A stretch of DNA of 64,000 bases from Nereocystis luetkeana (lineage: Eukaryota > Sar > Phaeophyceae > Laminariales > Laminariaceae): contig JARUPZ010000009.1 in NCBI GenBank assembly GCA_031213475.1, forward strand, positions 7,225,601 to 7,289,600, read 5' to 3'. Position numbers and translations under genes: made by a program. Positions 961-48,023 of this stretch are shown here, in pieces; within the stretch, counting starts at the first letter, position 1, and every line of letters begins with the position of its first letter. A model generated the notes under the pieces. It saw only the letters and a program-made list of their open reading frames with translations. It searched no databases and was not told the DNA's origin.

Positions 961-1050
961 CGGGGTGGAACAGCGAGGCGTCCCCTCCCCTTCCCCAGCC
1001 CGCCCCGCTCCTGTAAGGCCTTCCAGCATGCACAACGCCTGCGAGCGAGC
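961..1050 (-). CDS. Possible rotatin-like exon (tentative)
   Basis: Reads ARSQALCMLEGLTGAGRAG and ends at a GTGCGG donor; acceptor is a gaag after a T-rich stretch. Phase 0 to 0 fits the exon at 1589-1498 upstream. The second half is Gly-rich and weak, so the 3' boundary is a guess. Confidence 0.3.
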
Positions 1051-4000
1051 CTTCGCACGATAGAGTTTACATAAGGTTCGGACAAAAACAGGCAAAAAAA
1101 AACGAGGGGGTAGCGTTATGGAGGCAGTCAAGCAGGGGGGGAGGGGGGGGGCGGGGGGGGGGGGGTGTACTCGACTGCATGCATGGCCGTAGCCGCATAA
1201 CCTATGACCCGGGGGGGAGAGGGGAGGAGTTACTCAATAAAAATGCAGAAAATTAGTTCGAGCGGAACACAAACGGTAAACAAGCACCAGAATCAGAAAC
1301 CACAAAAATGGGTCGAAGCAACCTGCATTTTGGAGCCGAAAGACGAAAGATACATAATAAACGCGTGGACAAAATCCCCGGGGTAGTATCGCAACAACAA
1401 ACCAGAAAAAAATAAATAATAAGCATTCGGGGAAAAAAAAACACTCGGAGCGAAAACGTAACAAAAGAAAACTAAATGCCCGGCCCGGCATGTTTACCCG
1501 TTCTCCGAAGGCTCCCTGTAGCAGCCTCGCCACCAGCGTTGCTCCGGTCCGCTCGGCAGAAACGGCCGATGAGCCTCCTCGAGCTGCGCCTGAGTCGAGC
1601 GAGAGGGAAACAGGTTGGTTGTTGTTGCTGTTGTTGTTCATGGTTGTTGCTGCTTTGTGGTTGTTGTTGCCGTTATTGTTGCAGTTGTTGTTGTTGCTGT
1701 TGCTGTCGTTGTTGTTGCTGTTGTTGTCGTTGTTTTCGTGATTGTTGTTGTTGGTGGTGGTGTCGTGGTGTCGTGCTGTTCTGTTGTTGCTGCTGCACAC
1801 GTCGGATATATCAGACAGATCATCTACAGACAGGTCGGATAGACCACAACCTGGCGTTACGAGACGTAGAGCAATCTGCCTCGCACAGATCCAGCTCAGA
1901 TAACCGTGCGCCCGATCATGCAGCCGAAAGCGACGGTCTGTCTGATGTAGGTATTGTTGCTGTTCCGATGTTCGTCACGTTTCACCCCTCGGGCGCTTTC
2001 GGGTGTGGGAATTCCATACCCTCATGATCAACTTCACGTAACCATAGTCAGAGATAACGCTCCTTGAAGCGGCCAAAACTGTACACCAAAAACAACGCCG
2101 ATATCCATCGAAACCTGTGACCCACATAAGTTAGTCCACAACTGCCCCGCCCAACCCCCCCCCCCCCCCCCCCCCCCACCCCCCCCCTCCTACGGCCATG
2201 GACGGCATGAGTACCCCCCCCCCCCCGCCGCCCTCTTTCTCACGTTGTGCTGCCGTTTCTTGAGGACTGAAGCCCATTGACCCGCCGCCGCCGCCGCTGC
2301 CGCTGCCACCGCCGCTGTTCCAAGAACAGGATGCTTGCGCCGCGGCGGCCCACAGTGCCAAAGCCGCCCCGACCACCCTGGCGTCGTCCACGGCACGGAG
2401 AAGCGGTAACGCGCGTTCAACCTACCTCACCACCATCATCACCACCATCACCACCATCATCACCATCACCACCACCACCACCACCACCACCGTCATCATC
2501 GCCGCGTCCAAGCAATTGTTGACGAAGCGCCGGGAAAAGGAAGGGGGGGAGGCGGGGTCGGTTTCGTAGAGAAGGGTGTCATGTTTTTCATGCGGGATCG
2601 ATGTTTGGCGTACCGAGGCGATTGTCGTGAAGAATGACAGGGGTCTTCTCGATATCATGCATGGCCGCAGTCGTATGATCATAGACCTTCGTCTCCCTAC
2701 AATTCCGGGGACAGAGAGCACGTCGGGTTTTCATCGACCAGGTAGGCATTGCTTGCACCAAGCGCGACGCGAAACGTGAGGTGTAATGGCGAGAGCCGCA
2801 TGAAAGGGCGACCTGCTTCCTCCTAAGAAACCGCCTGTGAGGCGGGCTTGCGTTTTCGGATGACAGCGTCGAATGGATTGGTCTGTTTTCTGGTGTGGCC
2901 AAATCCAGAGACAGCAATGCGTATACTGTGTGCCTGCCTCATGGGTGCCTTGCCATAAAGGTGGGAGGGGGGGGGGGGGGGTTGTTGTGATAAATGCATT
3001 GTGATAGCGGTAGTGGTTAATAAGGATGCACCAATACTGCCACCGCCCCCGCCATAAATGGACGATGTAAGGGGAGGAATGAGGAGGGCCGGGTTTCGTA
3101 GTATTGGGAGTGTTGAAGTATCGGGGTGTTGGAACAAAAAAAAAAAAACGCAAAACGAAGAAAGTGTTGGGAAGTGCTGAAGCGCTGAAGTGTTGGGGTG
3201 TTGGCGTGTGGGAGGCGTTGGAGTGTTGATCAGCTGGAAACCAGATGCGAAACATTAAGATGTCGGGAGCGCTAGAGAGTGCTGGAGTGTCGGCTTGTTG
3301 GAGTGCTACAGTAGAGTGTTGGGAGCGTTGGGAGTGTTGAACTGTCGGAGTGGTGTTTGGGGGGGGGGGGGGGGGGGAATGCAAAAAATAAAAAAAATCC
3401 TCGGAGTGTTGGGAGTGCTGGAGTATCAGAGTGTTAAAGCGTGAAGCGTTCGACCGCTCGGGTCGAGATTTCTCGGCATGCTCGTGCGGTGCATACAGCA
3501 GAGCTCTGCATGAGAAGCCAAAACACTCAACACACGATCACCTGTCCAAGCTGCCCCTCCACCCACCCCCACGCATCGCCCTCCGCCAGCCCCCCATCCC
3601 CGGGGTCCCCGCCGTCACCGCCTCCGCCTTCCACGGTCAGGAGAACCGATGCGGCGTCCGCGACTAGACCCTGCACCAACTGAGGAGAAAGCGAACCGAA
3701 AATAGAGCAGGGACGGAGGTACTCATGCCCATGTATGGCCGTACTCGTGCCTGCGACCACAGACCCTCGCGCCCCTGCAATGCAGGGATGGAGCGAGTCG
3801 GGGTCCACCCGCAGGGCGAGTCACTGTTTGCACCAAGGGCGAGGCACCGTGAAGGGGGAGTTGCATCTTACTACGCAGGGAGGGGGGGGGGGGGGCATTC
3901 CAAAATGAACTGAGTACCGACTTCAACTACTGCATCGCGGATCGAATTCAATTCACATATAGCCGTGCTGCTTGAGTGGAGCAGAGAACGCGCGCGCGCC

Positions 4001-7000
4001 CGACGTTGTCACACTCAGCTTGAAGGGTTTGAGTGACAATCACGCAATTATGGGGCGAGGGTTCACAGCTGACGTATCGGTCACTATTCCATCGAAAGAA
4101 GACGCAAAAAGCAGCAGCAGCAGCAGCAGCATCGACACGCCGTTACTCTAAAAAAAAACAGAAACACTTACCAGGCACCCCCATCGGCATCGAGCGAAAT
4201 TGTTTTATTTATCTTTCTCAGAAACGCGGAAGCAGCCTTCGGCCCTCCGTAATACCTGGGCATGCACGTACGCATACGCAGGCAAACGCCTAAAGCCTGT
4301 CGTCGGGGTCGAGAAACAGAAAGCGAGCTATTGGGGCAGCAGACGACTCCAGCAGCTGGCGTAGTCTACGTTACAACCTCTCCTCGAGGTCGTGCTGCCG
4401 AGCGCTGTACTGCCGTGCTGCTGCTGCTGCTGCTGCTGCTGGGGGGGGCGTACAGGCGCGAGGTGGGGAGCCCGGGCCAGAGGGCCGCCATTGACGGTAA
4501 CGATTCTACCCGACACGGACCTACCTACCGCTGTGGACATGCCCTTGGCCAGGCATGTCCTTCTGTCCTCGACGAGGGAGCCGCTGCCCATGGTGCTACG
4601 ACTGCTGCCACTACCGTAGAACACGTGCGACCGACGCATGGACGCAGCTTGACCGACTTAGCACCGCCCTCTCCTGTGTGGGCATAAAGCCCTCAAATCC
4701 TAAGTGGCTCGTCCCCAAAACGGGACTGGGGTCCTAAAAAGGGTTGAAAAAAAAAACTGCGAGTACCGACCCACGTTTTGGCGGCACCCGCATCGTTGAC
4801 GCATGATGTGGGCAGTGTTCGTCTACACTCGTATCTACATGGTTTAAAAGCAAGGTACGTAGGGATACTACTATACGCCTAAAACGTTTTTCAAAGCGAA
4901 AGAAAAACGGGAAAGCTTCGAAATAACTACGCTAAACGCGCCGAAACATTCTTCAGAGAAAAGCGGGAACGTTTTTCAAGGCGCTAAAGTTAAAGCTTAC
5001 AAAGTTCGGACATAAACGAAGAAGAAGGAGCAACCCCCCCCCCGGGCGAGCAACTAAACCGGCAAAGTTCATACGGACTACGGTAGGTACTCCCTGCGAA
5101 CGTATACCTTTGTTTACGTATCCATACATTAAACAAAAAAAAAAAAAACGATTCAATGCCAGAAACGCCCGCCGGCTACTGCCACCGCCACTGCCACCGC
5201 CACCGCCGCCGCCGCCGCCGCCGCTACCATCACTACAACCGCGTCGCACCTGAAGCAGCCCCGCGCCGCGGGGGTCCGCTCGCGCCACGTACGGCATCAG
5301 CCGCGGTCTGAGCCAGGGCTGGCTTTCGGCGACCGCGGGGTTCAATACCAGCCCCCTCAGGAGGGCGATGAGTTCGGGAGGCAATACGATCGCGAATGGG
5401 TTTGTTGCTGCGAAGTCTTCTGTGTTGTCCTCCCCTGAAGGCGGGAAGGAAGGCGGGGGGGGGGGGGGTAGGGGCAGGAGGAGCGGAGGGGGGGGCGAGG
5501 GGAAGGAGGGGAGGAGGGGGGGGGGGGGGGGGGTATATTCGATAGGAGATATGTACTCGATCTCATGCATGGCCGTAGTCGAAAGACCATAGACCCTCGC
5601 ATCCCTACAATGCCGGGGGGGTAAGGAGGGGGGGGAGGGGGGGAAGGGGGGGGGGGGGGACTTAAATCCATGCGTGGCCGTAGTCGTCTGACAATAGACC
5701 CTCGCATCCCGACAATGCCGGGACGGAGCACGTCGGGTTTTCACCAATCAGGCAAATATTGCTTGCATCAAGCGCGAATCGCCGTGACGTGTTGGGCGAG
5801 TCGCATGAAAGGGAGAGCTGCGTCCTACCGCGAACCGCTTTTTCAGGCGGACGATTCTTGCAAACCGATGACAGCGTCACCGAATTTATTTAATTCGCGG
5901 TGTGGCCACTTCCAGAGACAGCAATGGGTTTTTTTCCCTACGTAAACGCCTCGTGGGTGCCTCACCATATACACGACACACTACGTGATGCGATCACACC
6001 CCCCTTTGTTCGGAGTGAAGGTTCTCCCCTCACAAAAAAAAGTCTAAGGGGAGGAGGGGGGGGAGGAAAATGGAGGAGAGGGGGGCGATGGGGGGGGGGG
6101 GTGGTCAGGGTGGGAAGACGGCGGGGGATAGGGGCAGCCTGAACATCCAGAGGGTCGTCCATTGCTGGACGAATATGCGAAGGAGGAGGACGAGAACGAG
6201 AAAGAGGAGGTTGAGGTGCGTTTTCGGTCAAGGTCCACGCTATTTTTCGTTCTCGCCGGCGCAACCATCCTACGATAGAGATTATTGAAGAACAAAAAGG
6301 GGCCCTTGAAGAAAATACGCATAAAAATCGGGGGCAGCTTCGGGCGCACAAATTGTGCATGCAATTTTCGCACAGCTCACAAGAAAAAGGGGTCAAAGCC
6401 TCGTAAGAGGAGGAAGCAAAAAAGAGAGGTATGTCGACGGAGGAGAGGCGGGCATGGGCTGGGATGGGCGGGCGGGGGGGGGGGGTGTACTCATGCTATG
6501 CATGGTCGTCGTTGCACGACCATACACCTTAGCCCACCTACACTACAATGCCGGGACGAAGCACCTCGGGTACTAAAGCTGATCAGGCAGACATTGCTTG
6601 CCCCAAACGGCGAAGCGCGGTGGGATGTGCGGCGAGTCGCATGAACCGTAAAGCTGCATCCCGCTAAGAACCGCGTGTGAGACAGACTCTCTTGCATACG
6701 GATTGGCAAGGTCGAAGGAATTGCGGCCAAGGGAGGGACAAGTTCGGGAGGCGGGGTCGTCGCCGGCGAGCTCGTTCAAAAGTTCGGCCGCCCTGCCTTG
6801 AAGGAGGACAGAGGTACGTGGGGAGAGGGGGGGGGGCGGCGATGATAATATCGGGAGAGGGTTTCCATGTGCCAGGGGATAGCGGCGTATTTGGGGGGGG
6901 CGGGGCAGGGTATTCGTGAAGGGACAGAGCAGGGAGAGAGGATATATTTGGAATTTGGGAAGGTTCTCACACGGGCAGAAAGAGGGGTCGGCGTAGCAAG

Positions 7001-7932
7001 TGGGGGTGTTATATCATAGGCAGGGAGGCAGGAGGGAGGGGAGGGTGTACTCGATAGGAGAGATGTACTCGATCTCATCCATGGCCGTAGTCGTATGACC
7101 ATAGACCCTCGCATCCCTACAATGCCGGGACGGAGCATGTCGGGTTTTCACCGACCAGGCAGACATTGCTTGCACCAAGCTCGAAGCGCCGTGAGGTGTC
7201 TGGCGAGTCGCATGAAGGGTGAGCTGCATCCTACTAAGGACCGCTTTTGAGGCGGACTTGCATATGGACGACAGCTTCAATGAGTTGATTTAATTTCCGG
7301 TGTAGGCATTTCCAGAGACAGCAATGGGAGTACTATGTAACTGCCTCTTGGGTGCCTTACCTTGAACACTACGTGATACGATCATTCCCAATTGTGCGGA
7401 GTAAAGGTTCTTTACCTCGCACAAATGATCTAACTCGACAACCGGCTGTGGGCGACCGCCAAAAAAAAACAAAAAAAAACGGTACCCTGTTTGTCTAGCT
7501 CACGTAAGTGAGCGGCATGTTTTACAGTGTCGTTGCCAATCGACGCCAACCCAACCTATAAAAAATAGGGGGAGGAGGGAGGGGGGGGGCGGGTAAGGGG
7601 TCTCTCTTGGCCCGGTCGTGAGCAGTAGGCCTCGAAAATCGAAAACACGATCGAAACAAAAACAAAAAAGCCAGAATCGTCGGAAAACCCTCAGTCCTCT
7701 CTCACCCGATACTACGTCCGAGGGAAGAATAGCGAAAAGCAGCCGTAGAGCTATCGCCGCCGCAGGGCTCGGCACACCCTCGCTCCCGATCCCCGTCTCC
7801 GCCAACACGCCTCCGCGCCCACCACCACCACCACAACTACCACCACCACCCGAAATAGACGCCTCGAAACCCTCCCTCCCCTCGGCCACTCCCGTTTCTA
7901 CTGATGCTGCAGCTACTGCTGCTGCTGCTGCC

Positions 7933-7973
<41 letters not shown>

Positions 7974-9536
7974 CGCCGCTGCCACCCCTGCTGCTGCTGT
8001 GGCCGACGCAGGGCCATCGCACGAGCGCGACGTGTTCCCTAGCACCCGACCCATGCTGCACATAAGTTCTTGAATCCGGAGGGCGTCAAGGGGGGAGGCG
8101 ACGCCGACCCCGGGGATGGATTCGTTCCGTCCCCTAGCGGGGATGGGTTTTTCCCGTCCCCACCCGGGGGCGGGATGGCTCCGCGGCTCTAGTAGGAATG
8201 GAATGATCGCCTGAGGGTGGTTGGTGGGGGTGGTGGAGGGGAAGCGAGTATGCAGGCGGTCGGAGAGCAAGGGGGGGTTCAAGGAGGAAGACAAGGACGA
8301 GAGCAAGGGCAAGAAGAGCAACACGGAGAACTCTGACGAGGATCAGAACAAGAGCAACGACAACGTGAACAGCGGAAAGCTATGACGAGATCAACGACAA
8401 ACAAGACGAGGACTAAGGACTAAGGACGAGGACAAGAACAACAACGACACAAACTGCATCAACAAAAGCGATAACCAGAACAACGAGGATGAGAGCAACA
8501 GCAACAGCAACAGCAACACCGAAACCACCACGACCAACACCATCACTACCACCACCATCAACACCAACACCAACTAGACCATCGACACCAACACCAACAA
8601 CGATCGTACCCCCACGAAACGTCAAAGCATACCTGCAGCAGCTCTCCCGCCAAGACCGACACCCTGGAAGGGCGTATCGGCGACCCTGATCCCGCCGCCG
8701 CCACCGCCCCCACCAACACCGCAGGCGACCACTGCTCTCCGACCACCGCCGCCGCTGCCACCGCTTCTTTATGCCCACGGGAGGCACCGCCACCACTACC
8801 ACCCCACCCACAACCGTACCCAAGAAGAGGACAAGCGGACAAAAACAGCGCATAGAGAGCGCCACAAACGCTAATCCCGCCCGCCCCCTGCCCCCCCTCG
8901 AGCCACGCCTCCAACTCCCGCTTTCCCTCTCCAGCCCTAAACCTTCCTTCCGGCCACGCCGGCATAGGGCTACCCCTCCCTTGTCCTGGAGCCCCCTGTT
9001 CACCGCGGCCCCCCACGCCCGAAAGCGCATGCCTCCTGCTCTGCGCGGAAACCCCTGTCGCCCGCCCGCCTTCCGCCAGTTCCCGATCTCGTCCAACAGC
9101 CTCCTCCAACAGCCTCCGATCTCGATATCGGTCTCGCCCGACGGCCGACGGGTAGCCGCCGACACCAGTTGAAGACCCCGCCCTGCTCGTACTTCCCTCA
9201 TCCCCCCCGTCTCCTCGCTTCCCCCCCGCCCTTCCTCCCCCGACCTCTCGGGAAGACGCGGCAGAAGCGGCGGCAGCAGCAGCAGCAGCAGCAGCAACAC
9301 CAGCGGATGCGACAACAGACGCCCTCCCCGACGACTGGGGGTACCTAAACGACCGGAGGGTCGCCACCGCCGCCTCTCCCGGCCCAACCCCAACCCCGAC
9401 CCTGCCCCCCCAGCCCCCAATCCCTCCCTCTCCCTCCCCGCCTCCTTCCCCGGGAGCAACGCGGTGGTAGTCCAAACCCCGGCGAGAACCTCCTATATGT
9501 TCTTCCAATACTGCATGCTTCCGAAGCTCTTGTCCC

Positions 9537-9567
<31 letters not shown>

Positions 9568-12500
9568 ATGCCGATGATGGCAGGGGGGAAAACGGCATCC
9601 GGAGAGCGGGGAGGGGGAGGGAGTGAGGGGCGTCCCCGCCACCATCCCCTTCCCCGCCTCTGCCCCCGTCTCCAACACCGTCGCTTCCGTCCAAATTGTC
9701 GGGTTTACAGGGGGGAAGAAAGGCGTCGTCAAAGTGGAGACGTGCGGAACTGACCAGGCGTTCCAGGAGGCGTTTTGCGGCCGAGAGGGATTCTTCGAGA
9801 ACTCGCTCGCTAGCAGAAGGAGCTCTAGGTGAACGGGAGGGGGTGAGGCGTTGTTTTCGGAGGAGGGAGGGGCGAGGGGAGGCGCGAGGGAAGGGCGGGG
9901 GAAAAGGGGAAGAGAAAGTGGGAGGGAATGTGTGGAGGCACAGGAGGAGGAAGGGAGGGAGGGGGGGGGGAGGGGGGAGAAGTGGGACGTGGTAAGGGGG
10001 TTAGGGCAAGGGAGGTAACTCCGAACGCATCGATCCGAGGGCTGAGCGGCCTGTGCTATCGAACAAAACTACCCACCCACCAAGCGCACCACGCACACAC
10101 CCACGCACAAACACACCCACACGCTCCAGAGTAACAAACAACAAAAACCACAACCTACACTACACACCCAGCACAGACACGAAGAAAAACACCAGCAAAC
10201 AAGAAACAGCAAGGACATGAAAGCAATCGAACATCCATGCTACCCCTCCCCTCCCATCACCTCCCCTCCCCCACCTCAGCAAAGCCGCCAGGTGGCCGAC
10301 GGCACCAGGCCTCTGCAGGAGAGCTTCCGGGGGGAAATCTTCCATGATTTCGTCTCTCAGGCGTTCGATGCAGCCTAGGAGGGCGGCTTCCCCCTGGCTC
10401 GTCGCGCGGAAGCGCACCTCGAAGTCGAACAGCCCGGACTCTTCGGACCTGTTCGAGGCGGCGACATAAAACGGCAGTTACATCGGCAGAAGTTACGTTT
10501 GATTAACCTTTTGCACCAAGTGCATGACGGTTACAAACAAAGTGGCAGATACTTTCGTGCGAATCGGTAGAAGCTGCGGTTGGGCCTGTGACTGGTTCAG
10601 GCGGTTTGGCGGTTACAAAACGTTCGTTCGTCGGTAGAAGGTATGATTTTTAAGCCTGTGCGTGGAGGAATACAAAAGGTCAGTCGCATCGGCAGATGTA
10701 TTGACGGGCAGAGATTGCTCTTGGGCCCGTTCCTGCGCGCGACGGCCGCAACTGCACAGGTTACGCTCGAGCGCGTACGCAGCGAACACGGCAGGGTAAT
10801 TTTGTCGGCAGAAGTTACGCTTGAGCCGGTCGGCGACGGTTATCAAAATGGACCGATACATCGGCAGAAAAATGCGCTCGAGCCTGCTCGCGGCGACTAC
10901 AAAAATGCAGACAGGTACATCCGCAGAATTTCACCATGAGTCTGTCGGGAAGCGGGGACATCGGCAAAAGTGGACCTCGAGTCTGTCGTAAGACGGGCAC
11001 CAAAATGTCGGTTACATCGGCAGAAGTTATTTTTTGCGCTTGTCCGATGCCGGTTACCAGATGGCAGTTACATCGGTAGGCGTTACGCTAGAGCCTGTTC
11101 GTTGCGGACACAATAGGATTTTACGATCGACGGTTGGGTTGGGGCCTCGCTTTAGCTAAAACATATCAAAACAATACCACCACCAGCAACAACAGCACCA
11201 GCAACACCAATGTTCAACAGCAACACCGACACCACCGACAGCACGCCACGTATCTCCCGAGCGAAGTCGTGTCCCGCAGCAGAAACGGAAAGTAGTATAC
11301 GTCCTCTTCTGACTCCCCACCCAGACCATTAACACAGTCGGCGAGAACCAAAATCAGCCGAACCCTCAAGCAACTATTAACGGAACAGTCAGCCGATTCC
11401 TTAAACGTACACCCAACCGAACTGGAATCATAAACCGAATACTCAGCCGAAATGAACGCCCGACGAAGAGATAACCGAGTTCGAATCCACAACCGAACGG
11501 AATCCTCGACAGAAGGGAGTCCCTCATTCGGACCCAATCCTTAACCGAACAATACCAACATCGGTAAAAACTACTTCGAGTCTACAACCGATCCGAATCC
11601 AAAACCGAACCGAATCCACAACCGCACGGAGTCATCAACCGAATCTTCAACCGAACGGACCGAACCATCAACCGCAATAAAAAAAAACACAATGAAACCC
11701 GTTGGAGTGTCACTCACCGAACCAATCGAACTGGGGGGAACCGCCATCCGGCGCATAGGGAGACAACCAGCGTCGCCGGCGACGCCTCCTCCGCGGCCAG
11801 GAGGGGGCCGTCCACCAGCTCCTTGGTCCAGCGAGGCCACCTTGCACGCACACATCGAAGATATCATATTAAAAATCCTCCTTGTGGGGACACCCGGCCC
11901 CCTTCCCCTAGAGAGTCCCGCCTCCTTATACCCCAAGTTTTCTCAAGGGCACACCCCAAGGTCTAGTCACACGACGGACGCGAGGTTTACACGGACCAAC
12001 CTCGGCGTGAACCCCACGCAACCAAAGAGAAACCTGCGTGTGTCGCGTCCGTCCCCCTCACACTGGCGTCGTAGGCAGGTACACCATAGAAATAGGACGA
12101 CGCGTCTTATTATGTAGGTAGGGGGGCAAGTTAATATATAGCGTTCGATGTTTACAGGGTAGAGACTCATCCCACCCTTGCTCGGGGAGGTCTGGATGCC
12201 TCATCCCCGAAAGCATACCTTCCTCCGTCAGAAAGAATAAAAAACAGAGAGTGCGACAAGCCAGACAGACCACCCACAGATCGTCGACTCTCACTCGATT
12301 ATCTATATATTTCGAAGCAGATACAATAGATATCTATAGATCATTTGACGATCTAGATCTTTCGACTTGCCGGGTGGGACCGGTATAATGTGCATGTGAT
12401 CTACTTCTGCTGTAGCACATGTTTCCCGGGTTGAACTTGTACTAGATACAGCTCCTGTACAATCTCATACGACGGCAGAAGAGGAGATGATCTATCTGTA

Positions 12501-29602: not shown

Positions 29603-29605
<3 letters not shown>

Positions 29606-30481: not shown

Positions 30482-30578
30482 GAAACGTCGGCGGTAACGG
30501 GAAGGTTAGTAGCGAGGACCCGTGGACGAAGTACGAGTCGCCGCCGGGGAATCGCCGTTCTGGTGGTGCTGCTGCCGG
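30482..30578 (+). CDS. Possible exon, unknown gene
   Basis: 97 bp, phase 0 to 1, acceptor gcgttgcag, donor GTGAGA. Reads ETSAVTGRLVARTRGRS then RRRGIAVLVVLLP. Looks coding; family not recognised. Phase does not join directly to 31570. Confidence 0.4.
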
Positions 30579-35288: not shown

Positions 35289-35403
35289 GTAGTACAAATT
35301 TTTTGTTAATGCTGTGACTGTTATGAGGCCATCAGCAGTAGTTGCTTTTCTTTCAGGTCCGTCTTGGGGGGGGGGGGGTATGAGGGGGGGGGGGGGGGGG
35401 GGG

Positions 35404-36808: not shown

Positions 36809-37125
36809 GGGCTCGTATCTTACTACTGCTGTAGTTTATATACCGGGCAGTGTTGTACGTGGTGCTTTGTACTGCTGCAAGATGAACCCCACACGAATTC
36901 CAAGCCGTTTATTCGCAAAACCATTGATGCTTTCACGGCTAAATTACGAATCCCAAGCGAATCCTACTACTTTCGCCCCCCTGGTTATGGGGGCGAGCGG
37001 CTTAGAATTCGTGTGAAATTTTGTTTTTTAGCGGCTATGAAGTATTGTGTTGAAGTTGGGACACGGCCTATGTACGCAGCCCCCCCCCCCCCCCCGCCCC
37101 CCCCCCCCCCCTCCCCTCATTTTGG

Positions 37126-37364
37126 CATGTATTAGATATAGGTTAGGTTGGCGTCGGTTGGCAACGGCACAGTATATCATGCCGCTCACCACTCCAGCTG
37201 CTGCAGGTACCGTTTTTTTTTTTTTTTTGGGCGGTCACACGGTCCAGTTAGATAATTTTTGTGCGCGGGGAACCTTATCTGCTCATAAGGGGGGATGGTT
37301 GTATCACGCGGTGTGTATATGGTAAGGCACCCACGAGGCAGTTACATATAGTAAACCCATTACT
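37126..37364 (+). repeat. poly(C)-SINE 5' half, cut by the assembly gap
   Basis: Starts GATATAGGTTAGGTTGGCGT after a C-rich run at 37080-37112 and runs to the gap edge. Shows the 5' end of the element. Confidence 0.85.
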
Positions 37365-37464
37365 NNNNNNNNNNNNNNNNNNNNNNNNNNNNNNNNNNNN
37401 NNNNNNNNNNNNNNNNNNNNNNNNNNNNNNNNNNNNNNNNNNNNNNNNNNNNNNNNNNNNNNNN
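37365..37464. other. Assembly gap (100 N)
   Basis: Exactly 100 Ns, a usual placeholder for a gap of unknown size. A repeat lies on its left edge and a truncated exon on its right. Confidence 0.99.
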
Positions 37465-37465
37465 T

Positions 37466-37582
37466 CAGGGACTTGAACGGCAGTTTTTCATGGTCGCCTC
37501 CTTGGCGATGTGCACCATCGGAGGGTTTCGAGAAGCACAGGCGGAGGCGTTGCGACTTCACCTGCCGCACCTGCTGTGGAAG
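37466..37582 (+). CDS. ARM-repeat (rotatin C-terminal-like) exon at gap edge
   Basis: Reads GLERQ, FFMVASLAMCTIGGFREAQA and ALRLHLPHLLWK before a GTGGGC donor, phase 0 at the 3' side. The 5' border is at 37469 (cag) or inside the gap. First visible exon of the plus-strand ARM gene. Confidence 0.65.
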
Positions 37583-40500
37583 GTGGGCTGGGCTAAGCAT
37601 TCGTTGGCTTAATGCTTCTTCAGTTTGGTTTTGATGTAGTTTGTAGCTTTTATCATTTTATTTTGTTTCTCATACGTGATGTTTTCTTTAGTTTTTTTTA
37701 TGTATTTTTTGCGCTGGTGTTTTTTTTTTTTTTTTTTTTTGTGTTCGTAGCACGTCGTCGACCCACCGTTATGTGGAGGAACCATCCTTGACGTTGGAAA
37801 TGCATCCCTTTTTCGGTGACATACTTCGTACGAACATTTGCACATTATGCCGACAATTTCTGTTCCCCCTCCCCGCACCCCCTCCCATCCCTTTCCCAAT
37901 CCCCCACCCCACCCTACCTCGCCCCACTCTGTCCCGGGGTTTCAGGGATGCGAGGGTCTACAGCCCTACAACTACGGCCATCCATGCCATGAGCACACCC
38001 CATCCCACTTCACTCATTCCGCCCCCCCTTACAATGTCTACCTGGTCGGTGACCACCCGACGTGCTCCGTCCCGGCATACGGCTTCAATCATGCATGACA
38101 TCGAGAACACCCCCCGCCCCCCCCTGCTTTTCCCTCCCCACCCTCCCCATTCACTCCCTCCCCCCCACCTTATCCCCTTCTGCCACCCACGCCCGAGCCC
38201 CCCCCCCCCCCCCCCCCCCCCCTCCCTAGGCCACCCGCTTCCCGTCCAAACCCACCCCACCCCTCCGCCACCCTGCTTGTTGTCCCTCCGTGAGTGCAGG
38301 CGTGGCCTGCAGCCTTGGCTTCGGAAATCACCTGGTGCTCCTCTCGGAGTAAAGATCACGGCGGGGTGGGAGCGGGAGCGGGGGCGGGGGCGGGGGCGGG
38401 GGGGGGGGCGGAGAGGGGGCAGCGTTCTGCTGCAGGCTGTGCTGGGTCTGTCGGGCTGTCTTGCCAAGGATTTCGCCGAGGGCAAGCGTTCGTTCATCTT
38501 CGCGGGGTCAGAAGGTGAAAAACAACGAACTGTTCGTGTGCTGTGTGTTTCTGAATGTGTGTGCGTGTGTGTGTGTGTGTGTTTTTTTGTTGTTGTGTCG
38601 AAGGGGGCCGTTTCGGAGGCGGATGGTTGAAGTTGAAGTTGAAGTTGAAGTTGAAGTTAAAGAAGCTTGAATTTGAGCTCGAGCGCCGAAATTGACCAGG
38701 AACTCCAACTGACGATAATAAATTTGAAAACTGTTGAACTTTATCTCGAAGTTGGGCTTGGGGTATTGAAATCGGACTTGAAGTTGGACTTCAAAATTGG
38801 CCTTGGAGGTAGACTTGGAATCGGAGTTGAAATCGGAGTTGAAACCGTAGTTGAAATTCGGAGTTGAAATCGGACTTGAGCATGAACTTGAAGTGCGGAA
38901 AGGCGGCAAAGAGGAAAAGGGGCCAGCCTGTGCTGCATGCGGTGTTGTGTCTGTCGGCGTGTCTTGCTCTTGCCAAGGGGTTCACAGAGGGCAGAAGCCG
39001 TCGCTTATCTTCGCAGGATCGGAAGGTGCAATCCTTTTTTTTTGTATTTGATTCCCCTTTCCTGGGCCTTGTGTACACTCCAACAAATATACTTAATAAC
39101 CACACTTGTGTACACTCCAACAAATATAAGTAATAAACCACACACTACTTGCAAGAATGAAAAGCTTTGCCGCTAAAAAAATAAACAGGCATCGGGACTG
39201 AGCATTTGATGAAATTCGTCCGCCCCCCCCCCCTCCCCGCCCCCCCGCCCCCGCCCCCGCATGCTCAACACTTTTTTACGTGAGCGGGATGTTCGATCAA
39301 AAGCTGGGTGATCCCTTGCTTTGCCTTCTAAATGGGTTTCGGGTGGAGACGCGCAAATCTTGAGCCTTGAACTATCGAGTTGAACCTTGTGGGCCGGAAG
39401 AGTTGGCGTGTCTCGAGGATAGTCATACCCCCCCCCCCCCCCCCCCGCCCTCCCCCAGATGCTCTGTCTCGAAGGGGATGCGTGGCCAATGGTCAAATGA
39501 CTATGGCGAGCAACAAATGAGTACGACGCTTCCCCCCCCCCCCCCCCCCCACCCCCCCCGACGCCAAAGCCCTGAAAACATATTTTTCGTGTGTTGTTCC
39601 ATCACTCTGCCCGAAGCACTATGATCCGCGTGGGGGATCCTCCCCCCCCCCCCCCCCGCCCCCCCCCCACGCCAAAGCCCTGGAAATATGTGTGTTGGTG
39701 TGTTGTTCCGCCACTCTGCCCGAAACACTATGGTCCGTAGGGGGGATCATCCACTCCGTCCGAAAATGCACGGGCCGGTAAAGTTTTCACGGTAATACTC
39801 GAGCTGTAGTAACCGTTGCGAGAGAGAATGTGGGTGGTATGTACGGTTGTTTTCGTATCCCGTGACACCCTGTTTTGTCCGTTTTTTTTTTTTTTTTTTT
39901 TTGTGTTTCCGCTTTCGGGTATAGAAAAATAAATAAATAAATAAATAGAAAAAAACGACCGAATAACTCGTTTGTTGAACCGAGGAGGTCGAGAATGGAC
40001 TTCGAGTTGAACTTCAACTTGAAGTTCCGCTTCAAAAAGCTCAACTGTTACGTTTATGAATGTTGAACATCAGCAGTCTGTCCTTACCGGGTACCTGGTA
40101 CATCGTGAGGGCCACCCCGAGGCACCGCCAATCCCTTGACTTTTTGATGTATCACCTCCCCCCCCCCCCCCCCCCCACACTCCCTCCCTCCCTCCTCAAA
40201 ACCCACCTCTGGCACGTTTTTTTTTTTTTTTTTTCCGGAAGGATCCCCCGAGGTACCGGGAGAGTGGCCGAAATCCAACCGATCCTTGCTTCACCGTCTC
40301 GCGTCGCTGGCGCTAGCAGGGTCTCCAACTGGAGGCGGAGGCGGAGGCGGGGGGCGGGGTGGTGAGTGCCGTCTTGTCACTGGTTTTTCCTGGGCACACG
40401 ATGGATGGTGACGCACGCTTACACCCTCAATTCGTGAGCAGCGCACCAGGCATAGTTTGGACGGGAGCGTGTTTGCAGCGCTGCCGCTGTATATAGAGGC

Positions 40501-43500
40501 GTTCTACGATAAAGGTTCACCCTAAATTTTCTGAGGCCCCTCGCTTAAGGAGCTCCATACCTCACCAGAAACCTGACTACAGCGACAAGCAAACGGCATC
40601 CCGACGAGTAATCCCATGGCCCAAGCACACAAAAGCGTCAGTATTCGCAACAAGAATGGCATTTCGACGATTTTGGGTCAAGAAACCCCGCCATTCAGAA
40701 ACAAAATCAGCGGAAATGTGCTATACCTCTATCGTAGAACGCGTCGCCTCCGGGGATATGCGGAGGCGATAGAGGTGTGTTCGGGGTAAGCTTCGCAGTG
40801 AAAATTTGGTCGTGTCTCGTGATACATGATACTTCAAGGCAAGTCTTACGACACGTAAAAATCCCTTTCCAAGCGTAGTATATCGGGGGACCACAGTAAA
40901 TAGGACCAACTATTGTTCGTAAAAAGTAGATACACATATAGGTTTTGGTGTGTACCATAGGTCCTGTTTACTGTGGTCCCCCGCAATAGTGAGCGCTCGA
41001 CTCTGTTTCCGAGTAGGTTTCGTTCGGCCCGGAGTGTCGGTTAGTGTAATCGTTCCTGCCGCCGCGATCATCAAAATATTCCTTTTGGGAAACAGTGAGT
41101 ATCACTTGGTGTTTATTTTTCTGTTCGTTTTATTCATTTTTTTTGTGAAAGTTTGTGTAATATTTTGTTGGGCTTATTTATTTACATATTTTTTCATTTC
41201 ATTCCACGTCATTTTCGATTCTCTTGTTTTCTGGCTTTGTTTTCACTGCTGTCCTGCATATCTAGGTGAGCCTGTTGCTCCCCCCCCCCCCCCCCCCCCC
41301 AAACCCTATTTTATATAGGTTGGGTTGGCGTCGATTGGCAACGACACTGTAAAACATGCCGCTCACTACGTGAGCTAGACAACCAGGGTTCCCTTTTTTC
41401 TTTTTCTTTTTTTTTTGGTGGTTACCCACAGCTGGTTGTCGAGTTAGATCACTTGTGCGAGGTAGACAACCCTTACTCCGTACATGTGGGAATGATCGTA
41501 TCAAGTAGTGTTCAAGGTAAGGCACCTAAGAGGCAGTTACATAGTACTCCCATTGCTGTCTCTGGAAATGCTTACACCGGAAATTAAATCAACTCATTGA
41601 AGCTGTCATCCATATGCAAGCCCGCCCCACAAGCGGTTCTTAGTAGGATGCAGCTCACCCTTCATGCGACTCGCCAGACACCTCACGGCGCTTCGCGCTT
41701 GGTGCAAGCAATGGCTGCCTGATCGGTGAAAACCCGATATGCTCCGTCCCGGCATTGCAGGGATGCGAGGGTCTATGGTCATACGACTACGGCCATGCAT
41801 GAGATCGAGTACATCTCTCCTATCGAGTACACCCCCCCCTCCCGCCCAACCCCTCGTGCTTGTCAAATACCAGGTACTTGGCACGCTTATTTTTCTTGTA
41901 TAAGTATATTTTTCTTTTTACCGGGGACCGTAGTAAATAAATAGGACCTACAGTACACACGAAAACCTACCATATTTACCTACTGGTATTTTTTTTTCGA
42001 ACAATGTTTTGGTCCTGTTTACTATTGCCCCCCCCCCCCCCCCCCCCCGGTAATAGTACCGGTCTGATCGCGTGCAGTTGCCTTTTTCGCGCGTTCATCG
42101 GCGCAAGCTTCTTATGGTTGACGTGTGCTCGTTAAATTTCGTTCGTGCTTCTCCCCACATCTCAGGCTACCTGGGGTACGGCCGAGCGGCGAGCGAGGGG
42201 GCGTGCGACGTGGTTCGGAGCTGCGTCTTGTCGGCCGAGTGTCGGTCGGTCCTTTGGCAGTCGGGGTTCTTCGCGGATGCGGCGGCGCAAGTCAGGTGCG
42301 CGGGGGACAGGACCGGAGCACACGCCATGTGGGGGTGGCGCCTTACCTTTTTTTTCTCACCGGAAAAACACGCGTTTCGAATAAGTTTGTTTCGCGCGGC
42401 AGGACACCCGCTCTCACCGCAAAAACACGCGCTTCGAATAAGTCGTTTCGCGCGGCAGGACACCCGCGTTTGTCTGCGCTGTGCTGCAGGTGGAAGTTCC
42501 TCACTCGAGGAGCGGAGTCGGTCACAAAGCTTTCATTCGGCCTTCTGCCGTGGAAGGTGTTTATAGTGGCGGCGGCGGCGGCGGTGGGGGAGGCTTGGGT
42601 GCAAGCAATATCTGCCTGGTCGGCGAAAACCCTTTCGTGCATGCTCCGTCTCCGCGTTGTAGGGATCGAGGGTCTATCTATGGTTATACGGTCATACAAC
42701 TACTGTACGACCATTAATGACATGAGTGCACCCCCCCTCCCCACCCTCACCCCCGCCAATGGCTGTACCCGCTAACCACTACCACCCACCCCTTTACCAC
42801 CCACCCCCACCCCCACACCCCGGTGTCCTTTCGACCCCCTCTCTTTTTTGGTTTGTGTGTGCGCGCATGCGCGTGCGCGGGCGTGCTGTGGCGCTTTTTG
42901 ATCGATTGTTTGTTGGTTTGTTGGTTTGTTTGTTTGTTTTCTTTTCTTCCTTCGCGTTTTTTTTTTTTTTTTTGTGACACGCAATGACTGTTAGTTAGTT
43001 AGTTTGTTTGTTTGTTTGTTTGTTTGTTTGTTTGTTTGTTTGTTTGTTTGTTTTTGTTTTGTTTTTTATTTCGCCATTTTTTCGTGACACGCAATGGTTG
43101 TTTGTTTGTTGGTTTGATTGTTGTTTTCTTTGTTTGATGGATGGTTTGTTCGTTTGTTTTCTTTTCCTTTCGCGCTTTTTTTTGTTTTTGTTTTTTTTTT
43201 TGTTTTTGACACGCAACGACCCAGCTTGCTGTGTGGGAAGCCGGGGACGAAGGGAGAATCCGCAGCGTTATCGAGGGCGGGGCAACGAGCGGGAGACCTC
43301 GTGGGGGTTCTCGTTAACGCCTCCTTGCAGGCAGAGGGCCAGAGGGCCTTGACGCAGGTGTGTGTGGCACGCGTCTGTTTTTTTTTTCCGGATGTTTTGC
43401 CGGTGTTAGGTGTTACAGGTTGATGTCACCGAGAAACATGATTGTCCCCAAATCGAAAAAAAACAAACTTTTGTCAGGTCCGCTGACAGGGAGCTGTTTT

Positions 43501-43870
43501 TTTGGCGTGTTGCTACTTTCGCTGATTATGCCACTTGAAATCGTTGATGTGATTGGTCTGGTAGAAATTGCGGAAGGACCCAACCCATGATTTCCCCCCC
43601 CCCTTCCTTTCATCCTTCCCCTTTCCGCCCTCCTCCTTTCCCTCCGCCCCCCCCCCCCCCCGCGCGCGCGCGAAAACCCAACATGATCCATCTCGGCATT
43701 GTAGATATTCGAAGGTCTATCGTCATGCGACTACGGCCATGTTTGGCAGGAGTATACCCCACCTGTTCCGTTGAAGCCCGACGTGCTCACTCCCAGCGAT
43801 GCGGGGATGCCCCTGGTCTATGGCAAAAAGGCCGAGGGCCGTGCATGACACCAGTATACCTCCCACCCCT

Positions 43871-43908
<38 letters not shown>

Positions 43909-45150
43909 CCCGTGTTGTCCCATTCCCCTTTCCCATCCCCTAACCTATCCCCTCCCGTTTCCATCTTACCTTCCGTCCCGAACGTCAAGCTGGACGGGAT
44001 AGGGGACATGCTGGGGAACCTCCTCGACGTTTGCCTCCGAGCTACTGCTTGCGAGGGGGACGGCTCGAGTCCACGCGACGTCGCTCCGTGCCCCGCCGTC
44101 GTCTCTCGGACGCTGCTGCTGCTGCGGAACCTCTCGCTGGCTCCGAGCACGGGACAGGTACTGAAACCCCGCGTGAGGGACGCCCCCCCCCCCCCCCCGC
44201 CCTCGACCAGCCATGAGAAATAGGACGACAGGAATGAAGGCGTTGCTACGGTATACCAACAGCTCCGTTCCCAAACATTGCGGACGTTTAGACTACCTAT
44301 CAGAGTCGAACTGGTCCTTGTGTTTCTGGACGTAGTGATATACTTGGTATGTATTTAGGGGCAGCGCGTTTTGCCCTCCAAGGCGAAAAAAAATTTTGCT
44401 GACGAGACGCCCCGCCCCTGATAAAGCTACCCGGTACACATACGGCAGTATAGCTCATTTCTGTTCCAACATTCTTGTTTTTGTTGTTGTTGTTGTTGTT
44501 GTTGTTTCGTCAGAGCTTAGTCGGAGAGGGGGAACGTCGTGGGGGATTTTGTTTTTGGTCGGTTTAGAGCCTAAGATGTCTCCTCCAAAAGTCAGTTTTG
44601 TGTGAGATATTAGTGAACATATATTGTGCTAGTGTGGAAGTCCTCAGACGAGTTTGGTGGGGTGAGGCGCAAGTCGATGCGAGGGACGACCAAAAACAAA
44701 ACGGACCGACCGAACTATTCTCGCGATAAAATGCGTGGAGAGGAGGAGGAGGAGGAGGAGGAGGAGGAGGAGGAGGAGGAGGAGGAGGAGGAGGAGGAGG
44801 AGGAGGAGGAGGAGGAGGAGGAGGAGGAGGAGGAGGAGGAGGAGGAGGAGGAGGAGGAGGAGGAGGAAGGAGAGATACGAGCCTGCCTTGTGTCCCCCAT
44901 AGCTGAGTCAACCAAAGAAGGGCGAAAGTGAGGAATGTGACGGAAAAATTAACGGGGGGGGGGGATAGGAAAAAAAAAGAACATAAAAAGTGACAAAGTT
45001 GGTGCTATACACGTATCACACCTGAATCGTAACCCCCGTCGCGTATCATACCTCTATGTTTGGATCCAGGGTGGCAAAAGAAAAGCGACACTAAGCCGAT
45101 CCGTAGTCAAATCTTATCGAGCATCGAATAAGTTGGAGGAGCGTGCGTGC

Positions 45151-45186
<36 letters not shown>

Positions 45187-48023
45187 AACAAGTACGAGTA
45201 CCAATTCATCAGCCCCCCATGGAAAGTTGAAAAAAAAAAACGTAAACATATTAGAAAAAAAAACGTCGTTGAGAAAAAAGAGGGACCGATTAAAAAAAAA
45301 AAAGTGAAACCTGTTATAACCAGACGAGCGTCTGTGCATTCGCTACTGGAGGACGAGTAGCGTCCAACTATCACGGGGGACCACAGTGAATAGGACCTAA
45401 TATTGTCTGTAAAAATAGGTGAATGTATAGTTTTTTGTGCGTACCGTAGATCCTGTTAACTGTGATCCCCCGTAATTATTTTCATCGTCCTGCGACTACG
45501 GTAGCATTGTCCCGGCATAAATGGGATGCCGGGTATGTTCCCCCCGAACCAGTTAGGTTCCAAGCAGTTTAACCCTATACGTAGCACTTGAATTCCATGT
45601 ATATATATATTGCCCCCAAACCAGTCAAATTCCAAGTAGTTCGTCCCCAAACCACTCCAATTCCAAGTAGATTGTCCCCAAACCACTCAAATTCCAAGTA
45701 GATTATTCCCAAACCACTCAAACTCCAAGTAGTGTGTACCCAAACCGGTCAAATTCCGAGTAGTTTGTCCCCAAACCGGTCAAATTCCGAGTAGTTTGCC
45801 CCCAAACCAGTCAAATCTCTAGTAGTTTGTCCTCAAACCAGTCAAATTCCGAGTAGTTTGTTCCCAAACCAGTCAAATCCCTAGTGGTTTGTCCCTAAAC
45901 CGGTCAAATTCCGAGTAGTTTGCCCCCAAACCAGTCAAATCTCTAGTAGTTTGTCCCCAAACCAGTCAAATTCCGAGTAGTTTGTTCCCAAACCAGTCAA
46001 ATCCCTAGTGGTTTGTCCCCAAACCGGTCAAATTCCGAGTAGTTTGTTCCCAAACCAGTCAAATTCTTGATAGTTTGTCCCCAAACCGGTCAAATTCCGA
46101 GTAGTTCGTTCTCAAAACGGGAGTGCAGTTTTACCCTAGATGAGGAGCCCCATTCCGCTCATAATACTTTCGCACCAAAAAAAAAAGCTGTCACGCCCGT
46201 AGTACCTAGTGGTCGGCATTTTTTTCCTTGTCTTTTCCGTTTTTGTTTCTACCCCTTTGAAGGCTCTGTATCATTTGTATGATCTGTATGATCTGTATGA
46301 TCTGTATGGTCTGTATTATCTGTATTATCTGTATGATCCGTATGATCTGCATGATCTGTATGATTTATTTGATCTGTATGATCCTTATGATCCGTACGAT
46401 ATGTGTGATATTAGTGATCTGCATGATCTGTGTGATCTATATGATCCTTATGATCTGTATGATCTATATGATCCGTACGATCTATATAATCTGTACGATC
46501 TGTATGATCAGTACGATCTGTATGATCTATGCAGCTTATGATGCCGCCGTGCGGCCTGCATCTACCAGGAGGACATGTTTCCTTGGTTGGATCTGTACTG
46601 CACAGGTTCTGCACAGTATCTGCACCTCCTGTTATACGGGAAGGTTAGGAGGTCGTAGTCTATGCGACGTGTCAAACGTTTCGCTTTTCTCCTCCGCCGT
46701 AAAAAAAACTGACCTTTCTCTAGGAAGCTCTTTTACTCTAGTGCCACTGTAGGTAGAGTACTCTCCCGTCGTATCAGCATCCGCCAAACGGTTTTCCTTT
46801 TGTCGTGTTTTATTTCTGATGTGCTTTTCTCCAATGACAGCTTGAACACGACCTTTTGCTTCAAGATGTATTCATTCAGTTCTTCCTCAGAGAGAGAGAG
46901 AGAGAGAGAGAGACTCTTGCGGCGGTCGAAGATCGGACTCCGGCCAACCACTCGGCGTGTTAGCGATGAGTGACCACGGCAACAATTACCATCAGGAACA
47001 ACAGCAACAGCGACAACACCTAAAACAACAACAACAGCAACAACGACGAGAATAGCCTCACGACCAAGAACACATACAGCACCTACCGTATCTTACATAC
47101 CTTGCAGCTGCTGATTTCCAGCAGCCCCTAACCCCAGCCCTACCCTTTTACGAACTCCTGCTCACGGGTGCCTCGCCCCCCCCCCCTTCCCTTCCCACCA
47201 ACCCCCTCTTTCCCCTCCTAATCCCCCCCCGTCCCCTCTTTCCAACCCCTACTTTGAAATACGGTTCGCCGGGAAAGGTTGTAGCCCATCGTGATCCCAT
47301 GGTAAAACTCATTTTGAGGGCGATTGGCAGGGCGGATCCAGAGTTGGCTCGAGCCGCCGCGTCCTGTCTAAGAGCTGCCCTGCGAGGGAGTTGCCGCGAT
47401 GCAGGCGGTAAAACGGCGGTGGGGGTTGGGGAGTGGGGGGCGGCGTTGGGTGGAGCGGTCGACTCGTGCCTGTCGGCGACGGCTTGGGCGTCTTCCACTG
47501 CGAGATCGAGGTAGACCTCTGGAGATTATTTTGTCTCGTGGTGGTGTTGGTGTCGATGGTCTAGTTGGTGTTGGTGGTGATGGTGGTGGTGTTGGTGGTG
47601 GTGTTGGTGGTGTTGGTGATGGTGGTGGTGGTGGTGGTGGTGGCGGTGATCGTGTTGGTGTCAGTGTTAGAATTGGTGGTGGTCGTGGTGGTGTTAGTGG
47701 TGTTGGTTCTGACGAGATGATGTTAGTGGTCGCTTGGTGTTGGTGGTTGTTGTTGTGTTCTTGTTGGTTGTAAAGGTGTTGGTGGTGGCTCTTCCCTCCC
47801 TCCCACTCCCCTCCCATCGTCTCCCGCATCTCCGTATTTCCCGTCATTCATACCTGTTTCTCTTGGACTCGTCCTCTTTCCGGAATGCCCTCTGTCCACG
47901 TGAAACAGCGGCTCCTGCGAGGAACAGAGCGGCCGATACAGCAGGAGCGGCAGAGGGGCAGAACGGCAGCAGATACTTCTACTGCGAAAGGAGCTACTGG
48001 CGGCCAAGGAACTTCTTGTGTAG
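37466..48023 (+). CDS. RTTN: ARM-repeat protein, 3' half of gene, probably rotatin C-terminus
   Basis: Ten exons: 37466-37582, 38300-38365 (tentative), 38436-38514, 40242-40361, 42166-42295, 42490-42556, 43253-43357, 43990-44157, 47278-47510, 47909-48023. All nine junctions agree in phase (0/0, 0/0, 1/1, 1/1, 2/2, 0/0, 0/0, 0/0, 2/2), which is unlikely by chance. The product is a chain of amphipathic helices of ARM type (LLHRLASLALAG, LVGVLVNASLQAEGQRALT, TLLLLRNLSLAPSTGQ) ending in a helical RQQILLLRKELLAAKELLV and a stop. I recall the LVNxSxxxEGQRxL and LLRNLxxxxxxK patterns from the C-terminal half of rotatin; another large ARM protein is possible. Introns hold SINEs, a MITE, a (GGA)n array and a satellite. 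The 5' half is not upstream on this strand. Confidence 0.6.
37928..38012 (+). repeat. poly(C)-SINE fragment
   Basis: Last 85 bp of the element, diverged, ending CATGAGCACACC. Confidence 0.65.
38030..38115 (+). repeat. poly(C)-SINE fragment
   Basis: ACAATGTCTACCTGGTCGGT to GACATCGAGAACACC-C(n); an internal part of the consensus (the GATGCGAGGGTC block) is deleted. Confidence 0.65.
38300..38365 (+). CDS. ARM-gene exon (tentative)
   Basis: Acceptor gtgagtgcag; reads AWPAALASEITW, which follows HLLWK of the previous exon in phase and fits an ARM helix. A G-rich (GAGCGG)n run follows. To reach the frame of the next exon an intron of about 70 bp must be assumed, short for such genomes, or the frame differs. 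Confidence 0.4.
38436..38514 (+). CDS. ARM-gene exon
   Basis: 79 bp, phase 0 to 1. Reads AVLGLSGCLAKDFAEGKRSF then IFAGSE. Acceptor ctgctgcag, donor GTGAAA. A frameshifted duplicate of it is at 38929-39031. Confidence 0.6.
38622..38900. repeat. TTGAAG hexamer array, degenerate
   Basis: (GAAGTT)n at 38627-38660 and looser TTGAAGTTGGACTT/TTGAAATCGGAGTT units to 38900. It lies between the exon and its duplicate; a further patch is at 39985-40040. Confidence 0.8.
38929..39031 (+). pseudogene. Frameshifted duplicate of the 38436 exon
   Basis: Nucleotide alignment to 38424-38520 is continuous (TGTCTGTCGG, TGTCTTGC, AGGGCA...TCTTCGCAGG), but a 3-base and a net 2-base insertion split the frame into VLHAVLCLSACLALAKGFTE and SLIFAGSEG. 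The donor GTGCAA remains. It sits in the intron after the intact exon. Confidence 0.7.
39447..39530 (+). repeat. LINE 3'-end fragment, poly(C)-tailed
   Basis: Matches the LINE terminus at 35404-35500 (CTCTGTCTCGAAGGGGATGC then GTGGCCAATGGTCAAATGAC), and ends ATGAGTAC followed within 10 bases by a C tract. Confidence 0.75.
39531..39755 (+). repeat. C-tract-flanked tandem repeat, two units
   Basis: ACGCCAAAGCCCTGAAAACA at 39559 and ACGCCAAAGCCCTGGAAATA at 39669, each ending CACTATG(A/G)TCCG and GGGGATC, each with a C run in front. Unit about 110 bp. Confidence 0.8.
40242..40361 (+). CDS. ARM-gene exon
   Basis: 120 bp, phase 1 to 1, a T(20)-rich tract before the acceptor ccggaag, and a GTGAGT donor. 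Reads SPEVPGEWPK, SNRSLLHRLASLALAGSP, then a poly-Gly tail. Phase fits 38514 and 42166. Confidence 0.6.
40494..40746 (+). mobile_element. TIR element, family M (about 250 bp)
   Basis: Begins GGCGTTCTACGATAAAGGT and ends ACCTCTATCGTAGAACGCGT, about 20-bp terminal inverted repeats. A second copy is at 49763-50010 and a lone end at 28843. Non-autonomous. Confidence 0.75.
40881..40986 (+). mobile_element. TA-flanked MITE, family C
   Basis: Ends TATCGGGGGACCACAGT and ACTGTGGTCCCCCGCAA with TA on both sides. Compensating A/G changes keep both ends paired. Confidence 0.9.
41308..41840 (+). repeat. poly(C)-SINE, near full length
   Basis: About 530 bp with both ends: starts TATATAGGTTGGGTTGGCGT just after a C tract (41280-41300) and ends ATCGAGTACACC-C(n). 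In the intron between ARM exons 40361 and 42166. Confidence 0.9.
41918..42053 (-). mobile_element. MITE, family C, with C-tract expansion
   Basis: Inverted copy: TTACCGGGGACCGTAG at left, CTATTGCCC-C(n)-GGTAA at right. The five-C of the TIR has grown to more than 20 C. Confidence 0.85.
42166..42295 (+). CDS. ARM-gene exon
   Basis: 130 bp, phase 1 to 2, acceptor ccccacatctcag, donor GTGCGC. Reads YLGYGRAASEGACDVVRSCV and SAECRSVLWQSGFFADAAAQ; the CR..L...GFF pattern is ARM-like. Confidence 0.7.
42490..42556 (+). CDS. ARM-gene exon
   Basis: 67 bp, phase 2 to 0, acceptor gtgctgcag, donor GTGTTT. Reads WKFLTRGAESVTKLSFGLLP and ends WK. Joined to the previous exon at AG/G (Arg). Confidence 0.6.
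42593..42738 (+). repeat. poly(C)-SINE, 5'-truncated
   Basis: About 145 bp ending CATGAGTGCACC-C(n). Has a TACTGTA-type insertion near 42703. Confidence 0.8.
42905..43200. repeat. (TTTG)n arrays
   Basis: Three runs of TTTG interrupted by TTTTTTGTGACACGCAATG, which recurs at 42971, 43082 and 43206, so the unit is a higher-order repeat of about 110 bp. Confidence 0.85.
43253..43357 (+). CDS. ARM-gene exon
   Basis: Phase 0 to 0, donor GTGTGT. Reads GESAALSRAGQRAG then DLVGVLVNASLQAEGQRALT. The acceptor is either gaag at 43252 or gaag at 43240 (both phase 0); the stronger-looking cccag at 43224 would give the wrong phase. Confidence 0.6.
43673..43865 (+). repeat. poly(C)-SINE fragments, two in tandem
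   Basis: Two diverged 3' ends, 43673-43763 and 43765-43865 (GTGCATGACACCAGTATACC-C(n)). The second is followed by a 40-base C tract at 43870-43905. Confidence 0.65.
43990..44157 (+). CDS. ARM-gene exon
   Basis: 168 bp, phase 0 to 0, donor GTACTG. Reads LDGIGDMLGNLLDVCLRATA, an acidic linker, then TLLLLRNLSLAPSTGQ. The 5' border (cgtcaag) lies behind a long C/T-rich tract. Confidence 0.7.
44738..44867. repeat. (GGA)n array, about 43 units
   Basis: About 130 bp of uninterrupted GGA; opens poly-Glu or poly-Ser/Pro frames. Intronic in the ARM gene. Purity suggests recent expansion. Confidence 0.95.
45140..45186. repeat. (TGCG)n array
   Basis: TGCGTGCG tetranucleotide run of about 45 bp. Confidence 0.9.
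45371..45475 (+). mobile_element. TA-flanked MITE, family C
   Basis: TCACGGGGGACCACAGTGAA to AACTGTGATCCCCCGTAA. TA on the left, TT on the right. Confidence 0.88.
45528..46137 (+). repeat. 31-bp satellite grown inside a family D MITE
   Basis: About 18 units of CAAATTCCGAGTAGTTTGTC plus CCCAAACCGGT, period 31 bp. The unit equals the centre of the family D MITE, and the array ends at 46137 with the MITE's own right end (CAAAACGGGAGTGCAGTTTT then ACCCT). Confidence 0.9.
46262..46540. repeat. TGTATGATC 9-bp array
   Basis: About 30 units of CTGTATGAT with drift. All three frames stay open (Tyr/Asp/Leu, Ile/Cys/Met), which is a repeat effect. Confidence 0.9.
46888..46912. repeat. (GA)n
   Basis: Short dinucleotide run. 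Confidence 0.9.
47278..47510 (+). CDS. ARM-gene exon
   Basis: 233 bp, phase 0 to 2, acceptor ccgggaaag downstream of a C/T tract, donor GTAGAC. Reads VVAHRDPMVKLILRAIGRAD, PELARAAASCLRAALRGS, a Gly-rich link, and LGGAVDSCLSATAWASS. Good ARM helices. Confidence 0.7.
47530..47770. repeat. GGTGTT/GGTGGT array
   Basis: Complement of the ACCAAC array at 19 kb. Lies in the last intron of the ARM gene. Confidence 0.9.
47909..48023 (+). CDS. ARM-gene terminal exon
   Basis: 115 bp, phase 2 into stop. Acceptor cacgtgaaacag. Reads SGSCEEQSGRYSRSGRGAE then RQQILLLRKELLAAKELLV and TAG. The frame is the one not listed by long ORFs here; it was found from phase 2 continuity and the Leu-rich helix. Confidence 0.6.

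Follow-up and report, generated by a model that had tools for sequence, protein, structure and literature searches.

Two interrupted genes point to a misoriented 61-kb contig in the genome assembly of Nereocystis luetkeana

On chromosome-scale sequence JARUPZ010000009.1 (C9) of the Nereocystis luetkeana assembly GCA_031213475.1, two exon chains that resemble the two halves of one rotatin-like gene lie on opposite strands around an assembly gap, and the question is whether this arrangement belongs to the alga or to the assembly. The window, by which we mean the whole stretch of 64,000 nucleotides analyzed (C9:7225601-7289600), was extended by the flanks C9:7105601-7225600 and C9:7289601-7329600, and whole-genome searches covered 465,085,209 bp in 1987 contigs. 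The gap between the chains is a run of 100 N at window positions 37365..37464 (C9:7262965-7263064; no strand). A second 100-N gap was found left of the window, at C9:7201861-7201960 (window -23739 to -23640), and no further N run lies between the two. The 61,004 bp that they enclose (C9:7201961-7262964, window -23639 to 37364), here termed contig X, are therefore a separate piece held between two 100-N joins. The sequence at its right end belongs to a repeat that has further pieces (14 matches including itself in the 224 kb studied), and the end of the left flank lies inside another repeat (10 matches including itself in the same 224 kb). When contig ends of 6 kb were compared, many short repeat matches appeared, and no clean end-to-end overlap stood out among the matches listed. 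A dispersed repeat occurs in both orientations at 7320-7560, 33572-33815, 34192-34426, 37137-37364, and 41307-41557; contig X ends within its copy, and the copies are 69 to 74% identical to the one at that right end.

To the right of the gap, the plus-strand chain opens at the fifth base past the N run, after four intron bases, and spans 37469-48023. A protein search with this part (E<=0.01, 7985 scored candidates) returned three relatives, all brown-algal and unnamed: P0001 of Scytosiphon (749 aa, partial), P0002 of Ectocarpus (2172 aa), and P0003 of Undaria (1880 aa). The first exon (37469..37582, beginning GLERQFFMVASL, phase 0) matches P0003 1535-1560, P0002 1828-1864, and P0001 330-366. 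It is followed by the exon AWPAALASE...EGKRSFIFAGSEG (38300..38514), in which the relatives reveal that the frame shifts within a run of G near 38390-38420, and by EGSPEVPGEWPKSNRSLLHRLASLAL (40238..40350, ends approximate), which is 76% identical to P0003 1660-1680. The remaining exons are ACDVVRSCVLSAECRSVLWQSGFF (42166..42295), LLCGKPGTKGESAALSRAGQRAGDLVGVLVNASL (43225..43357), LDGIGDMLGNLLDVCLRAT...LLLLRNLSLAPSTGQ (43990..44157), VVAHRDPMVKLILRAIGRADPELARAAASCLRAALRG (47278..47510), and the last exon, ERQQILLLRKELLAAKELLV, which includes the stop codon (47909..48023). Seven chosen plus-strand exons give a stop-free frame of 323 aa to the terminal TAG. The initial annotation had described this chain as phase consistent; its open frame to the TAG holds, but it lacked the exons at 38300-38514 and 40238-40350 that the relatives show. 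Within the gene, positions 38936-39025 are a decayed tandem duplicate of exon 38436-38514 with a broken frame (85 of 115 aligned positions identical, 9 gaps), and a long GGA-type simple repeat occupies 44737-44865, in the intron before the exon at 47278.

To the left of the gap, minus-strand exons with AG/GT ends run in the window from 18455 down to 961. The first one detected, LRHPLAEVRARAISNIS (18403..18455), has an AG acceptor and a GT donor and fits the next exon in phase, and profile position 1 of the Pfam family RTTN_N falls here; no start exon was identified upstream of it. The second exon (16946..17426) is interrupted within the RTTN_N region by an insert rich in Ser. A tentative third exon, beginning DSRCRALLAGGGAAGPLSRI (14936..15064), is preceded by GTACAG and has an unsettled end; when it is added, the RTTN_N match grows from 1-56 to 1-77. 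Further along the minus strand are LFDFEVRF...EDFPPEALLQRP (10275..10448), a long exon with a low-complexity insert (8633..9809; open frame, AG/GT ends, fitting phase), and exons at 7706..8210 and 6700..6796. Since the join from 6700..6796 to the next exon, ELIALLRGLVLNPAVAESQPWLRPRLM (5250..5434), is out of phase, an exon may be missing between them. The exon at 3542..3679 corresponds to P0003 13-60 (tblastn E 2e-4, 54% identity) and that at 1498..1593 to P0003 80-111 (E 4e-4, 56% identity); a candidate exon at 2244..2421 is proposed from its open frame and AG/GT ends, and the last exon of the chain in the window (961..1038) reads GGDASLFHP, where Undaria has GGDASPFHP. Phase agreement along this chain, as first proposed, was not reproduced at every join, although the exons and their AG/GT ends were: the exon placed before 10448 is a tentative one, phase fails at the 6700/5434 join and at those around 2244-1038 with the exons as chosen, and the relatives add 1593-1498 to the set.

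The proposal that the minus-strand chain leaves the window was borne out. The middle of the protein lies in contig X on the same strand and in order, up to P0003 1369 at window -23066, and the gene extends to C9:7202080 (window -23520). There the linker exon ends and a GT follows, 119 bases short of the left end of contig X. This exon contains a frame change in a C/G run at window -23079 (C9:7202521), its last residues are SKDGQGE, and a codon boundary falls at the donor. The frame changes at this site and at 38390-38420, both in G or C homopolymer runs, are likely sequence errors and possibly real.

Whether the two chains belong to one protein was judged by comparison with the relatives. In a tblastn search of the window, P0003 13-60 and 80-111 matched the minus strand and seven other segments, from 1535 on, the plus strand, and no match covered the residues between 111 and 1535 (9 of 10 matches listed); the middle therefore had to sit left of the window. 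With the flanks included, all P0003 matches within 13-1369 fall on the minus strand of contig X and those within 1535-1878 to the right of the gap, on the plus strand, so that the halves are consecutive, non-overlapping parts of one Undaria protein, as would be expected if the left contig were inverted. We then counted tblastn matches at E<=1 in the sequence as assembled and with contig X flipped. As assembled, P0003 has 18 matches on the minus strand, all in contig X, and 8 on the plus strand, all right of the gap. After the flip, every match lies on one strand and in order (P0003 26/26, P0002 16/16, P0001 11/11), with zero order violations. C-terminal exons on the minus strand farther left, which would have spoken against the initial annotation, were absent among the matches in the 120 kb left of the window. 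At the junction that the flip creates, SKDGQGE|GLERQFFM, the chosen splice sites give phase 0 on either side, and Undaria reads RKDGRGKALERQFYM unbroken across the equivalent point; the exon nearest the left gap of contig X and the exon right of 37464 are therefore neighbors in the relative. The P0002 and P0003 models leave most of the N-terminal exons at 18455-5250 without a match, and for this reason they look incomplete.

A PIF1 helicase gene offers an independent test, because with contig X reversed, the PIF1 fragment that heads toward the right gap must resume beyond the left gap, on the minus strand. The later PIF1 exons were found exactly there. The fragment in the window is the Walker A exon, FFTGAAGTGKSFLLKKLHQ (35166..35288, plus strand; tblastn with P0005, E 2e-16, 82% identity), which is severed from the rest of PIF1 as the initial annotation had noticed; a possible N-terminal piece, DPWTKYESPPGNRRSGGAA (30517..30573, plus strand), matches weakly (P0005 44-62, E 0.03; P0004 34-52, E 0.06). 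In a motif scan, Walker A (GAAGTGKS) lies at +35241, and Walker B (DEISMMEADLFDKL), GDFFQLPP, and YVALSR follow on the minus strand at -25621, -26282, and -35363, so that Walker A, Walker B, and the later helicase motifs occur in the order of a PIF1 protein. P0004, the PIF1 of Ectocarpus fasciculatus, also matches in order, with residues 152-187 at 35190-35297 on the plus strand and 226-601 from -25552 to -35473 on the minus strand. After the flip, 12 of its 13 matches (E<=1) and all 5 of P0005 come to lie on a single strand. The remaining P0004 match, a stray located to the right of the gap on the plus strand (50565-50690, E 0.39), accounts for the 2 order violations in 12 for P0004. The proteins P0006 and P0007 match wholly in the left flank and are uninformative on the flip. 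In comparison with brown-algal PIF1 such as P0004, in which PF05970 is present, the pieces found here are 54 to 96% identical and stand in the same order, but residues 188-225 of the relative have no match between window -40000 and 40000; they are probably hidden in the left gap, C9:7201861-7201960.

Contig X thus has a gap on both sides, genes cut at both of its ends become continuous on reversal, and flipping it in place puts both the rotatin-like gene and PIF1 in order by one change. From these sequence comparisons, we regard it as almost certain that contig X was placed correctly between its two 100-N joins and oriented wrongly; the arrangement as assembled is an assembly artefact. The left end of contig X would then lie in the intron of the rotatin-like gene that is followed by the first exon right of 37464, and the right end would lie inside PIF1, with the later PIF1 exons left of the left gap. 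In the corrected order, the two would be divergent neighbors, with PIF1 (minus strand) running leftwards and the rotatin-like gene (plus strand) rightwards. Counting against the flip, the linker exon and exon 38300 each need a homopolymer frame change, P0004 188-225 was not found, and one of the 13 P0004 matches is a stray.

The assembled sequence, taken at face value, would mean that the sequenced individual truly carries an inversion of some 61 kb that broke PIF1 and the rotatin-like gene, but both of its breakpoints would need to coincide with assembly gaps. Only four intron bases precede the exon at the right gap and its partner lies 119 bases from the other end of contig X, a layout that a gap-bounded flip explains with no further assumptions, and the fragments retain open frames and splice sites, the two homopolymer frame changes excepted. 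When 37465-38560 was searched as DNA against the whole genome (best 40 of 1365 candidates scored), 42 matches resulted: the locus itself, matched along the entire query, and 41 others that fall within query 462-763, an intronic repeat. With all outside matches confined to this repeat, neither a second near-identical copy of the exons past the gap nor another contig across the right join was found among those best 40 of 1365 candidates. We therefore hold it very unlikely that the alga carries a genuine 61-kb inversion that disables or re-wires PIF1 and the rotatin-like gene. Less probable again are two separate armadillo genes, one per strand, each running into an unsequenced gap. The 100-N gaps are arbitrary in length and sequence may be missing in them, as for the unfound PIF1 stretch, but the chains correspond to successive stretches without overlap in single relatives, P0002 and P0003, which join them, and at the junction the exons are compatible in phase and consistent with the join seen in Undaria. 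That contig X is misplaced as well as misoriented and belongs elsewhere is the least credible reading, for which no supporting point was found, since both of its ends fit both neighbors via two different genes.

A misoriented contig is a known kind of scaffolding error. The scaffold was probably built from Hi-C data, as we infer, and the scaffolder may have picked the wrong orientation because contig X is short and ends in repeats. Passages in two reports (PMC7672694, PMC6719893) document orientation errors of short contigs by Hi-C scaffolders: that on HiC-Hiker puts the orientation errors of 3D-DNA at 4.3% in its benchmarks, and that on SALSA2 states that for short contigs, wrong orientations carry similar link weight. 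The present case resembles the orientation (inversion) errors described there for 3D-DNA, HiC-Hiker, and SALSA2 in that a short contig stands at its proper position in the wrong orientation, but it differs in being diagnosed from two interrupted genes and not from contacts or a reference. The scaffold as deposited breaks two conserved genes and would falsely suggest an inversion when synteny or populations are compared, and the precise correction is to reverse C9:7201961-7262964. Interrupted intron-rich genes can thus expose orientation errors without read data.

The identity of the protein is a separate matter. It is probably rotatin, the centriole-building armadillo-repeat protein, an assignment that we make from sequence with moderate confidence. 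The RTTN_N match reaches 20.8 bits over profile positions 1-77 of 97 when the Ser-rich insert is omitted and the tentative third exon included, 19.3 bits without insert and third exon, and 14.7 bits with the insert kept, all below the Pfam curated cut-off of 25. No named rotatin appeared at E<=0.01 among the 7993 candidates of the N-terminal homologue search, or in the C-terminal search, which returned the three unnamed brown-algal proteins. P0002 and P0003 have no Pfam family at E<=1, and the C-terminal part gave nothing useful in Pfam (one G2BR match under its cut-off) and no PDB match, an alignment query yielding eight at E 0.5-8. A single-frame RTTN_N search of the whole genome gave no signal, and because its controls were silent too, it is uninformative. 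The structure model of Scytosiphon P0001, with helices and zero strands, is too poor to use (mean pLDDT 47.6, 3 sequences), and the papers listed by a literature search on brown-algal rotatin were unrelated. Given the RTTN_N score below the cut-off and the absence of a named rotatin from these searches, we call the protein rotatin-like; the rotatin reading of the initial annotation is thus moderately supported. The motif EDFPPEALLQRP presumably resembles human rotatin and serves as a lead only. Compared with rotatin (RTTN), the protein scores below the Pfam cut-off, has large low-complexity inserts, and found no named rotatin or solved structure by sequence here, but the two share great length (2172 aa in the Ectocarpus model) and a weak RTTN_N match that starts at profile position 1 in the first exons.
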